Below are positions 18,077-22,339 of a stretch of 36,140 bases of DNA, one piece after another. This stretch comes from Limnochordia bacterium (lineage in GTDB: Bacteria > Bacillota > Limnochordia > Darwinibacteriales > DTU012). The first letter of the stretch is position 1, and each line of letters opens with the position of its first letter. The translations under genes and the position numbers were made by a program. Location: the NCBI GenBank assembly GCA_007116145.1, contig SKJB01000031.1, forward strand, positions 1 to 36,140. The letters are read 5' to 3'. Below the pieces are notes generated by a model. That model was not told the origin of the DNA. It saw only the letters and a program-made list of their open reading frames with translations, and searched no databases.

Positions 18077-19891
18077 TTACTCGACTGTTACGCTCTTTGC
18101 TAAATTCCGAGGCTTATCTACATCGCAATTCCTAGCTTTAGCCGCATAATATGCTAGTACTTGCATTGGTATCACTGTCAACAAAGGGGCTAGAAAATCT
18201 AGTGTACTGGGTAACAGTAAAATCTCATCACCAACATCGGAGAAATCACCAGAATCGGCTAATGCTAACAAGAGAATATCTCCACCGCGCGCTTTTACTT
18301 CTTTTAGATTACTTACCATTTTTTCTTTTAATAAGCTTTGCGTTACTAAAGCAATCACAGGTACATCAGGCATAACCAGTGCTAGCGTTCCATGTTTGAG
18401 CTCTCCTCCAGCTAATGCTTCACCATGTATATAAGAAATTTCCTTAAGTTTTAACTGTCCTTCCATAGCTGAGGCATAGTCAAGACCTCTCCCGAGAAAA
18501 AAGGCATCCGTTGCTTTGACTAATTTCTGGGCATAGTCTCGTAATCGCTCTTCATGCATAGCTAGCACGCTTGCAATCTGATCAGGAATTTTTGTGAGTG
18601 CAATTAGACTACTAGGATCAACACGCCCGAGCAACTGTTCCTGTAAATAGGCTGCAATTAAATATAGGCAAGCCAATTGCGTTGTATAGGCCTTAGTAGA
18701 AGCTACAGCAATTTCTGGTCCAGCATGGGTAAACATTACAGCGTCAGCCTCACGAGCTAAGGTTGAACCAACGACATTTGTAATTGCCAACACCCTTGCT
18801 CCTTTTGCCTTGGCTAAACGCAAGGCACCGAGCGTATCCGCTGTCTCACCCGACTGACTTATCACGATGAGTAAAGTATTTGCATCGGCTTTCACTCGTT
18901 TATAGCGGTATTCTGACGCTAACTCGGTTTCAACCGGTAGCTCTAGCAAATCCTCTAGTAAACATTTGCCATACAACGAAGCATGATACGCAGTCCCACA
19001 AGCAATAAACTGAACCTTAGTAATCCCTTTTACCAAACTTACAGGAATATCGTGACTTATGGTGAGATTTCCATCTTGATCAATCCGCCCAGCTAACGTG
19101 TCGCGAACTGCTTTTGGCTGTTCATGGATTTCTTTTAGCATAAAGTCCGCAAAACCTTCTTTTTCAGCCTGAATGGGATCCCACTCTACCTGAAAAACTG
19201 CCTTATCTATCGGGACTAATTCTTTGTTAAATACCTCCACTGTATCCCTAGTCATCCGCGCCATTTCTCCATCTTCTAATATATAGACGTTGCGGGTATA
19301 ATCTAAGATGGCTGGAATATCGGAGGCAAGATAATTCTCCCCCATTCCTAATCCTATTACTAAAGGTGAATCCTGACGAACCACCACTAATTCATCTGGG
19401 CTATCCTGTGCTAGCACTGCGATAGCGTAAGAGCCCCTTAAATCTTTAATGGCTAAACCAATAGCTTCCAGCAAATTCCCTTGGTAATACTTTTCGATCA
19501 AGTGACTAATAACCTCTGTATCTGTTTCGGAACGAAAAACATGACCTTCGGCAATCAATAGGGTCTTAAGATCCTGGTAGTTTTCGATAATTCCATTATG
19601 AACCACAGCAATATTTCCCGTACAGTCATAATGAGGATGGGCATTATCATCAGATGGAGCGCCATGCGTAGCCCAACGAGTATGACCGATCCCCACACTA
19701 CCACTAATTACCTTCTGATTGAGTAAACATTCGAGATCTGCAATCCGTCCTTGCGTTTTATGAACATGAAGTTTGCCATTTAATTCGCAGATTCCTGCCG
19801 AATCATAACCGCGATATTCCAGTTTTTTTAACCCTTGGAGTAAAAAGGGAGCTACTTCCTGTAAACCTACATATCCTACGATCCCACACAT
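18077..19891 (-). CDS. glmS: glutamine-fructose-6-phosphate aminotransferase
   Basis: Makes glucosamine-6-phosphate, the entry step to peptidoglycan and lipid A amino sugars. The mature enzyme starts MCGIVGYVG, so Cys2 is the glutaminase nucleophile; the N-terminal domain shows YRGYDSAGI, GHTRWATHG and DNAHPH. Two SIS sugar-isomerase domains follow (FIACGTAYHASLYGK, VISQSGETADTLGALR) and the C-terminal KPRNLAKSVTVE is conserved. The start at 19889-19891 is fixed by Cys2 and by AGGAGG nine bases upstream; a frame reaching 69 codons further passes through the ribozyme and is not coding. 604 residues, family length. Confidence 0.97.
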   Translation of the reverse strand: MCGIVGYVGLQEVAPFLLQGLKKLEYRGYDSAGICELNGKLHVHKTQGRIADLECLLNQKVISGSVGIGHTRWATHGAPSDDNAHPHYDCTGNIAVVHNGIIENYQDLKTLLIAEGHVFRSETDTEVISHLIEKYYQGNLLEAIGLAIKDLRGSYAIAVLAQDSPDELVVVRQDSPLVIGLGMGENYLASDIPAILDYTRNVYILEDGEMARMTRDTVEVFNKELVPIDKAVFQVEWDPIQAEKEGFADFMLKEIHEQPKAVRDTLAGRIDQDGNLTISHDIPVSLVKGITKVQFIACGTAYHASLYGKCLLEDLLELPVETELASEYRYKRVKADANTLLIVISQSGETADTLGALRLAKAKGARVLAITNVVGSTLAREADAVMFTHAGPEIAVASTKAYTTQLACLYLIAAYLQEQLLGRVDPSSLIALTKIPDQIASVLAMHEERLRDYAQKLVKATDAFFLGRGLDYASAMEGQLKLKEISYIHGEALAGGELKHGTLALVMPDVPVIALVTQSLLKEKMVSNLKEVKARGGDILLLALADSGDFSDVGDEILLLPSTLDFLAPLLTVIPMQVLAYYAAKARNCDVDKPRNLAKSVTVE

Positions 19892-19923
19892 ATATATATT
19901 CCTCCTGTATTTAAAATTGGATA

Positions 19924-19966
19924 TAAAAAAACCATGCAGTTGTAGTCGGATCACAACGCAGCATGG
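19924..19966 (-). terminator. terminator-like hairpin between glmS ribozyme and glmS
   Basis: CCATGC (19961-19966 read on minus) pairs with GCATGG (19932-19937), an inner TTGT/ACAA adds four pairs after a small internal loop, and seven or eight U residues follow. It stands 14 bases past the ribozyme core and about 20 bases before the glmS ribosome site. It looks like a true intrinsic terminator, which is not part of the standard glmS ribozyme. Confidence 0.65.
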
Positions 19967-19979
19967 AGACGCGTTAAAA

Positions 19980-20132
19980 CCCCTAGCCATTTGAAAGTAT
20001 TTTGTCGCTGAAGTCGCCTTCAGATTTTGTAACTTCCTATCGAATATGGCATCCGAGTGGTATCCGCCGAACGTTTCGATAAACCACTCCCTCGTCAACT
20101 TTCCGAAACTAAACTAGGAAAGTTCTGGCGCT
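19980..20132 (-). ncRNA. glmS ribozyme: glmS ribozyme
   Basis: The minus strand has the conserved core: AGCGCCAGAACTTTCC at the 5' end, a loop, GGAAAGTTGACGAGG, GGTTTATCGAAAC.TTCGGCGG, the P3.1-like CTGAAGGCGACTTCAG, and a distal purine-rich GGCTAGGGG. Self-cleavage, using glucosamine-6-phosphate as cofactor, is expected between the bases complementary to 20132 and 20131. This gives feedback control of glmS. Confidence 0.95.
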
Positions 20133-20232: not shown

Positions 20233-20263
20233 ATTATATGCTAATTTTAAATAAATTGTGCAA
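20233..20263 (-). promoter_or_regulatory. probable glmS promoter
   Basis: A perfect TATAAT (20233-20238) with TTGCAC (20258-20263), read on minus, but the spacer is 19 bases; shifting the -10 to CATATA gives 17. The transcript would start about 95 bases before the ribozyme. Confidence 0.5.
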
Positions 20264-20338: not shown

Positions 20339-22339
20339 ATGAAAGGTCATTTTCTGTCAACTTGTCGACAAATCATTATTTTCCTCATCGCTTTGGGATT
20401 ATTTTTAACAATGTGTAGCACTCCAACCTCCATGCAATTTCAAAAAATTACAAACCAAACCACTACTATGCCGCAAAATTCCTTTTATGCGAATCAACCG
20501 AAGCGAACAGTAGCTAGTAACCATACCCAGCAAGTATTGGATTTTGCTTATCTCGCTTTACAAGCTGGACAGAGTCAAGAGGTACGAGATTTACTAAGAG
20601 ACCACCCAGCGCTTGAGAACAGGACCGTGAAGATTGCTTACAGCGAGGCCCTTTTAGCACTTGATGAGGTAGAATTAGCGATTTTGCACCTCCTCTCAGC
20701 CAATAAACTGCAGGAATCCTGGGATGTGCATTGGAAACTAGCCACGGCCTACACACAGTTAGCCGACTTCGAGAAAGCATTAGTGCATTACGCAGATGCA
20801 ATGAACCAAGGTCCGACATCAACGTTAGTCCTCAATGATTATGCCTATACCTTAGCAGCCATGGGTAAAATAGAACTAGCGATTGAGACCATGCAGCAAA
20901 GCCTGCGCACAGACAGCAGCCAATATTACCTGAACTGGCAACTAGGAGATTGGGCGGCAAGCATTGAGAATTACCAACTAGCAATTGGCTTTTGGCAAAC
21001 AGCGCAGAGAATTCGTCCCAACAAAGAAGTTCAAGCACAAATAGAGAATGCACACAGATTTCTACCAAGGCCAGAGCCGCTGCAAGTACAACCTGAGCCC
21101 CCATCCGTTCAATTAGTGCATCACCACACTGTCACAAAAACAGGTAACGCATCGCCAATTCGCGTTGGGCTCATGGAAAAGGTAACAACGCTCACTTTCA
21201 GTGCTGGTGCAGATTTTCTGATCACGTCTTCAGAAAGCACCTCTTTAAGAGCCGCTGGAAAAACCCTGTGGCAAATTCGTCTTGATCCGAATGAAAAGGA
21301 CAAAATAGTCATGCGGAGTTCTCAGCAAGAAATACAACTAACCCCACCAATCCGATTGGTACAGACGCAACCCACCACAACCTTTGCTATATATGATATG
21401 GCTTATGGATCAGGCTACTTCTGGGCAGGACGAGAGACTCGTCAGTACCGAGGCGACATGGAGTTTTTACTTTATCCACAAGGGATTACAGTCGTTAATG
21501 AGTTACCGTTGGAAGAATACCTCTACGCCGTTGTCCCCGGAGAAATGATTGCTTCTTGGCCAATGGAAGCGCTCAAAGCACAGGCCGTGGCTGCACGTAC
21601 CTATACTGTCTTTCACCTAGGCCGTTACCATGAGCGCGGCTTTGATCTACTCGCCTCCGTTGCCTCAGCTCATTATCCTGGAGTATCGCGAGAACACCAG
21701 CGAACCACCACAGCGGTTAACGAGACAAAGGGACAAATTATAACCTACCTAGGTCAACCAATAGACGCTGTCTACTCAGCCAATAATGGAGGTATTCGGG
21801 CCTCTAGTGCCGAAGTATGGGGAGGTAACCGCGCATACCTAGTAAGCGGTCATGATGGAGATGAACTTCCTTTCCAATCCCCTACAGCATTTCTCCATTG
21901 GTTAAAAGATGATGCGGATGTTTACTCAAATATTGGGCGGCAGCGCAGTAATTTTCGTTGGACCCGTACGTATAGTAGGCAAGAGTTGCAGCGATTTGCC
22001 CCTACTCAAATTGGTGAACTGCTCGATCTCCGCATACTTGACCGTGGCGAATCGGGTCGAGTCGTAACGATCGAATGGGTGGGTACATTAGGCTCAACCC
22101 AGGTGCATAGAGATGCAATTCGTAGTAGTCTAGGAGGATTGCGGAGCAATTTATTCATCATGCATCCTAGATATAACAGTGACAACACCCAAATCATGCA
22201 AGTGATAATCTGGGGTGCAGGCTGGGGACACGGAGTTGGCATGAGTCAAACAGGAGCCTACGGAATGTCAGAGCGTGGGTACAACTACGAAGACATTATT
22301 CGCTTTTATTATCCGTCAACACAACTCCAAACTAGATAG
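20339..22339 (+). CDS. TPR and SpoIID-domain protein (lytic transglycosylase-like)
   Basis: A 666-residue envelope protein. One hydrophobic segment (about 10-27, IIIFLIALGLFLTMC) anchors or exports it. Residues about 60-240 are TPR-like helical repeats (ALVHYADAMNQGPTSTLVLNDYAYTLAAMGKIELAIETMQ). A Pro-rich linker (about 243-258) leads to a SpoIID/LytB domain from about 280: LPLEEYLYAVVPGEM with the catalytic Glu, ALKAQAVAARTYT, and GWGHGVGMSQTGAYGMSERG. SpoIID cuts denuded peptidoglycan strands during engulfment, but the domain also occurs in non-sporulators. The TPR fusion is unlike Bacillus SpoIID (about 340 residues). GAGGAGG precedes the ATG; first gene of a plus-strand group. Confidence 0.88.
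   Translation: MKGHFLSTCRQIIIFLIALGLFLTMCSTPTSMQFQKITNQTTTMPQNSFYANQPKRTVASNHTQQVLDFAYLALQAGQSQEVRDLLRDHPALENRTVKIAYSEALLALDEVELAILHLLSANKLQESWDVHWKLATAYTQLADFEKALVHYADAMNQGPTSTLVLNDYAYTLAAMGKIELAIETMQQSLRTDSSQYYLNWQLGDWAASIENYQLAIGFWQTAQRIRPNKEVQAQIENAHRFLPRPEPLQVQPEPPSVQLVHHHTVTKTGNASPIRVGLMEKVTTLTFSAGADFLITSSESTSLRAAGKTLWQIRLDPNEKDKIVMRSSQQEIQLTPPIRLVQTQPTTTFAIYDMAYGSGYFWAGRETRQYRGDMEFLLYPQGITVVNELPLEEYLYAVVPGEMIASWPMEALKAQAVAARTYTVFHLGRYHERGFDLLASVASAHYPGVSREHQRTTTAVNETKGQIITYLGQPIDAVYSANNGGIRASSAEVWGGNRAYLVSGHDGDELPFQSPTAFLHWLKDDADVYSNIGRQRSNFRWTRTYSRQELQRFAPTQIGELLDLRILDRGESGRVVTIEWVGTLGSTQVHRDAIRSSLGGLRSNLFIMHPRYNSDNTQIMQVIIWGAGWGHGVGMSQTGAYGMSERGYNYEDIIRFYYPSTQLQTR

Follow-up and report, generated by a model that had tools for sequence, protein, structure and literature searches.

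A clade-specific candidate pseudoknot terminator between the glmS ribozyme and glmS in Limnochordia-type bacteria

The glmS leader is the textbook ribozyme-riboswitch and is thought to work through cleavage alone. Used as a negative control, Bacillus subtilis glmS gave no sign of transcription termination (PMC12121620), and a 2026 survey, in which ARNold predicts terminators after glmS aptamers, found no covarying overlap and judged such a platform not common (PMC13273304). A 2022 review lists glmS among the classes never found in tandem (PMC9481103). Structurally, the P3/P3.1 pseudoknot of the ribozyme class has been described (PMC11602151), as has a preformed pocket (PMC2258182). Other riboswitch classes offer closer parallels to the leader studied here: the compact, conserved HMP-PP (thiS motif) riboswitch doubles as the terminator, may include a pseudoknot and often stands in tandem behind another riboswitch (PMC6478431), and in the transcriptional preQ1-I riboswitch an H-type pseudoknot controls intrinsic termination or pausing (PMC11625349).

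We analyzed a window of 36,140 nucleotides (contig SKJB01000031.1 of the Limnochordia bacterium assembly GCA_007116145.1) in which glmS is preceded by a ribozyme assigned to RF00234 on the basis of a full-length covariance-model match above the gathering score and its position upstream of the gene (Table 1). The arrangement resembles the B. subtilis type in having a full-length ribozyme upstream of glmS, with an RNase J family protein encoded in the same genome; however, the mechanism described for that type is cleavage and decay, whereas the window has a conserved structure and a U-tract between ribozyme and gene. It likewise shares with the ARNold-predicted terminators a terminator-like structure between ribozyme and glmS, but the survey (PMC13273304) describes no conserved element, whereas the clade of the window has a conserved pseudoknot-like unit. 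A promoter-like site at 20262-20233 lies where the glmS promoter is expected, since the gene at 20339-22339 (+) is divergent from glmS; the count of such sites in the region is not above that in shuffled sequence. Just downstream of glmS, before the riboflavin genes, is an ordinary FMN riboswitch (RF00050, 17830-17962, minus strand, 116.4 bits).

Table 1. Features of the glmS leader and gene in the window, in order of transcription.
Feature	Coordinates	Strand	Remarks
Promoter-like site TGCACA, 18 nt, TATAAT	20233..20262	(-)	upstream of ribozyme; 10/12 consensus matches
glmS ribozyme, RF00234	19983..20143	(-)	103.6 bits, gathering score 37; model 1-167, full length
Ribozyme cleavage site, expected by homology	between A20132 and G20131	(-)	
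P3 loop GCCAU, partner of ribozyme 3' tail (P3.1)	20046..20050	(-)	from sequence
Ribozyme 3' tail AUGGC, P3.1 3' strand	19986..19990	(-)	invariant in five leaders
P1 5' strand GGGUUUUAACGC	19971..19982	(-)	U19977 faces U19953; 8/12 pairs changed on both sides, 0/500 shuffles
S2 5' strand CCAUGC, inside P1 loop	19961..19966	(-)	nearly invariant; 5' arm of the terminator in the earlier note
P1 3' strand GCGUUGUGAUCC	19948..19959	(-)	folding and covariation
Inner helix GUUGUG/UACAAC of competing nested terminator	19939..19957	(-)	would break P1; pairing not conserved
Linker L3	19938..19947	(-)	first bases GAC (19947-19945), adjoining P1 in every one of the five leaders
S2 3' strand GCAUGG	19932..19937	(-)	3' arm of the terminator in the earlier note
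U-tract, 7 U	19925..19931	(-)	6-8 in relatives; directly after S2
Ribosome binding site AGGAGG	19901..19906	(-)	from sequence; outside element
glmS, 604 aa	18077..19891	(-)	ATG at 19891; GATase and SIS domains

An earlier note on this DNA had proposed that a plain terminator-like hairpin stands between the ribozyme and glmS. Its arms, CCAUGC (19966-19961) and GCAUGG (19937-19932), are indeed present before the AGGAGG, but the plain hairpin is wrong or incomplete as a model. The arms make a 6-pair stem enclosing 23 nt, which as a simple hairpin gives a fold z of -0.93 and is matched by 33 of 200 shuffles; a simple terminator scan of the region does not list it, and the fold of the whole 271-nt leader (z -0.27) is uninformative. 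The U-tract, given there as 8 bases, has 7 (19931-19925), and the CCAUGC arm begins 16 nt past the end of the Rfam match rather than the 14 claimed. Because the simple hairpin is insignificant against shuffles, significance had to come from comparison.

The comparison set consisted of five complete ribozyme leaders, including that of the window, from five genera in two families of one order. Within this order the ribozyme occurs in 6 of the 37 genomes examined, and the ribozymes of the complete leaders are 80-87% identical; the contig of G034 ends after a ribozyme and P1 5' strand, and the remainder of the element was not found. The possibility that related leaders keep the hairpin is borne out for its arms and U-tract in every complete ribozyme-glmS leader of the order (5/5), where the interval from ribozyme to gene contains CCAUGC or UCAUGC, GCAUGG or GCAUGU, and 6-8 U. 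Folding of the five sequences reveals a separate hairpin, P1, whose loop holds CCAUGC in each case; P1 has 11-12 pairs and a predicted energy of -13.3 to -15.1 kcal/mol and is the favored fold in all of them. The P1 loop is 9 nt long, reading GUCCAUGCA in three genomes and CUUCAUGCA in G003, and is 2 bases longer (11 nt) in the window. On the 3' side of P1, all five leaders have GAC at once, then 6-7 nt, GCAUG(G) and 6-8 U. Eight of the 12 P1 pairs have changes on both sides among the five sequences, a level that none of 500 shuffles reaches, and the covariation score is 0.489 versus at most 0.139 in slid controls, which have at most three both-side pairs. Pairwise identity averages 0.63 and 0.38 for the P1 strands, but 0.94 for the loop, 0.93 for the S2 3' arm and 1.0 for the U run.

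Since the 5' arm of the terminator lies in the loop of the covarying P1, the conserved architecture would be either an H-type pseudoknot or a pair formed by P1 and a terminator. The covarying stem 1 and the conserved loop and tail, with workable loop lengths for a loop-to-tail stem 2, are compatible with an H-type pseudoknot. Its dimensions (11-12 bp for S1, 5-7 bp for S2, ~2 nt for L1, 9-10 nt for L3) resemble those of the coronavirus frameshifting pseudoknot in geometry only. Within S2, five of the six pairs never vary, and the sole variation, a U/U in G003, which keeps just five S2 pairs, breaks a pair; as S2 has no compensating change, we infer the pseudoknot from sequence conservation and geometry. 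The predicted S2 pairing amounts to -6.7 to -9.6 kcal/mol, and with the polymerase in the U-tract P1 is computed to be outside the enzyme and formed, with a pair probability of at least 0.995 before S2 emerges. As in an intrinsic terminator, the U-tract follows the stem directly and is conserved (6-8 U in 5/5 leaders).

P1 might instead be an antiterminator that holds CCAUGC in its loop, occupies its own 3' strand and blocks a nested terminator, in which case a factor opening P1 would turn glmS off. The nested terminator does use the P1 3' strand, P1 is the favored fold in 5/5 leaders, and plain competition between P1 and the terminator is possible because G000 and G031 have a nested terminator of similar predicted energy (-15.1 vs -15.3 and -15.7 vs -16.3, respectively). 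However, the nested terminator is less stable in G003 (-5.5 vs -13.3) and G002 (-11.3 vs -16.0) and is therefore not the conserved state, and the pairing of its inner helix is not conserved. The plain terminator part alone, which ranges from -3.6 to -13.2 kcal/mol across relatives, is weak in G003 (-3.6) and G001 (-8.6), although both leaders retain the U-tract and GCAUG(G); moreover, the arms of P1 and S2 do not overlap, so both helices can coexist. We accordingly favor a pseudoknot terminator or attenuator and treat the P1 antiterminator as its main structural rival, one that we consider quite unlikely.

The element was searched for beyond the five leaders. A covariance model run against 73 genomes of the class and 398 of the phylum gave clear matches only in ribozyme-glmS leaders, and of 66 places returned by a pattern scan of GTDB r220, the 4 that match the model clearly are all glmS leaders. 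A rule-based scan for a pseudoknot with a U-tract (1.59 million strand-bases, 3212 U-tracts), with scoring rules chosen once the element was known, gives 21-24 to the five leaders and 20 to the highest-scoring place unrelated to them; by the same scoring, none of 57 ribozyme leaders outside the order has the element at the leaders' score. Plain terminator-like hairpins, unmatched in 60 shuffles, are found in the ribozyme leaders L013, L015, L076 and L096 from outside the order. The element is absent from the related glmS genes of G006, G008, G010 and G033, all four without a ribozyme, and no member lacking a ribozyme was found by the class and phylum model search or the GTDB r220 pattern scan. 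With matches confined to ribozyme-glmS leaders and none in the four ribozyme-less genes, element and ribozyme therefore co-occur in the order. The string CCATGC..GCATGGTTTTT occurs once in G000, and looser repeats elsewhere in G000, G002 and other genomes are without the element's spacing and GAC. A search of 19880-19995 against Rfam gave no family match; the top hit had an E of 5.2 and fell far short of its gathering score. Judged from five sequences, the element is clade-specific, belonging to a small group of uncultured Limnochordia-type bacteria.

Like many HMP-PP riboswitches, the element stands behind another RNA device, here the ribozyme, but in HMP-PP the pseudoknot state disrupts the terminator, whereas here S2 itself abuts the U-tract; we noticed no sequence resemblance between the two, and Rfam gives no match (PMC6478431). 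The preQ1-I terminator is a separate downstream hairpin, unlike the window element, to which that family has no Rfam match either.

Taking these comparisons together, we propose with moderate confidence that the glmS leader consists of a ribozyme and a clade-specific H-type pseudoknot terminator (attenuator) in series. The glucosamine-6-phosphate-activated ribozyme would come first, with the pseudoknot element directly behind it. P1 would form on leaving RNA polymerase and expose CCAUGC in its loop; the emerging GCAUGG would pair with that loop, placing a helix at the U-tract and leading to termination or a strong pause before glmS. The pseudoknot element would set, and may regulate, the number of transcripts that reach glmS, and the ribozyme would destroy these transcripts when glucosamine-6-phosphate is high. 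The comparison shows the conserved layout, the covariation of P1, the near-invariance of S2 and the U-tract, and the restriction to ribozyme-bearing glmS leaders; from there we infer formation of the pseudoknot, in-cell termination and whatever signal might regulate it. The earlier note picked out a genuine feature, though incompletely, and its guess at the kind of function was right: the transcriptional layer it placed between ribozyme and gene has comparative support (structure and U6-8 in 5/5), but the object is a conserved pseudoknot-like element and no simple hairpin.

A further suggestion of that note, that cleavage or folding of the ribozyme alters read-through, finds almost no support in the leaders, as no ribozyme helix overlaps P1 or S2, apart from the 4-base CCAU/AUGG found in both P3.1 and S2. 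Direct coupling of this kind might proceed, for example, by a strand swap between P3.1 (GCCAU/AUGGC) and S2 (CCAUGC/GCAUGG), with which the invariant P3.1 tail, the nearly invariant S2 and the shared CCAU/AUGG are consistent; on the other hand, we put the probability of a 4-base overlap at a few per cent, the ribozyme pocket is described as preformed (PMC2258182), and the broad survey found no covarying overlap (PMC13273304). We regard such coupling as very improbable.

The pseudoknot terminator could work with or without a second signal. As a constitutive attenuator or pause site it would answer to none and would lower basal expression or buy time for ribozyme folding; pausing or termination requires at least a structure followed by a U-tract, and pseudoknot-stabilized pausing has been described for preQ1-I (PMC11625349). 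The loop, GAC and S2 letters are kept while P1 diverges, however, which is more than such a site would seem to need, and we hold this version to be possible rather than expected. The pseudoknot might also be a very compact second riboswitch aptamer, itself the terminator and in tandem behind the ribozyme, which a ligand would stabilize or disrupt. Conservation of the loop and GAC in sequence as well as structure, and detection of the element only upstream of glmS, are consistent with this version, and a compact terminator-embedded aptamer is possible, as HMP-PP riboswitches show (PMC6478431); in addition, ribozyme-less relatives have glmS behind glutamine synthetase (G010, G033) or behind glutamate-synthase-type genes (G006), which hints at nitrogen control. 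Yet few unpaired bases are conserved, and the GlmS proteins of two carriers (G001, G003) probably cannot use glutamine. Glutamine, or a related nitrogen signal, was a first guess for the second signal and was not adopted, given these two carriers without a working-looking glutaminase. A second aptamer is, on balance, unlikely, and a sensing function would be new, because the 2022 review lists glmS as never in tandem (PMC9481103). Both versions are sub-cases of the pseudoknot-terminator explanation, and our confidence in them overlaps with our confidence in it.

Several glmS loci of relatives differ in their surroundings or their protein. At L039, L040 and L043, which have no ribozyme, glmS comes directly after glutamine synthetase (G033 and G010, the assignment coming from a Pfam run on G010) or after glutamate-synthase and GXGXG-domain genes (G006). 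The ribozyme-controlled glmS of L044 (G001) and L022 (G078) encodes a 368-residue protein without a glutaminase domain; L022, the only one of the two run against Pfam, has SIS domains alone, and these proteins are perhaps ammonia-dependent enzymes or deaminase-like relatives. The full-length GlmS of L041 (G003) starts MSGVIGYVG, with Ser for the catalytic Cys, and reads HTAWVTHG for HTRWATHG, with Ala for Arg; its use of glutamine appears doubtful. G002 has a second, partial GlmS-like frame (G002:C247:720-1703, 335 aa), in which matches to residues 1-80 and 356-604 stand side by side and the middle is missing.

At L007, L009, L014 and L021 (G069, G072, G061 and G054) the gene behind the glmS-type ribozyme (100-111 bits) encodes fructose-1,6-bisphosphatase instead of GlmS, an identity given by PF01950 (580.6 bits) for L014, the one tested; in G054 and G061 another ribozyme stands before glmS. 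The product of fructose-1,6-bisphosphatase, fructose-6-phosphate, is the substrate of GlmS, and a ribozyme upstream of this gene was not reported in the paper titles and abstracts that we searched.

With a second conserved element lying between ribozyme and gene, two-layer control of glmS can be put directly to the test. A terminator with the second stem of a pseudoknot as its U-proximal helix would broaden the common view of intrinsic termination, and terminator finders based on simple hairpins would miss one of this type. If the element were a tandem aptamer, it would represent a new riboswitch class, and glmS would respond to two metabolites: glucosamine-6-phosphate through cleavage and another through termination.
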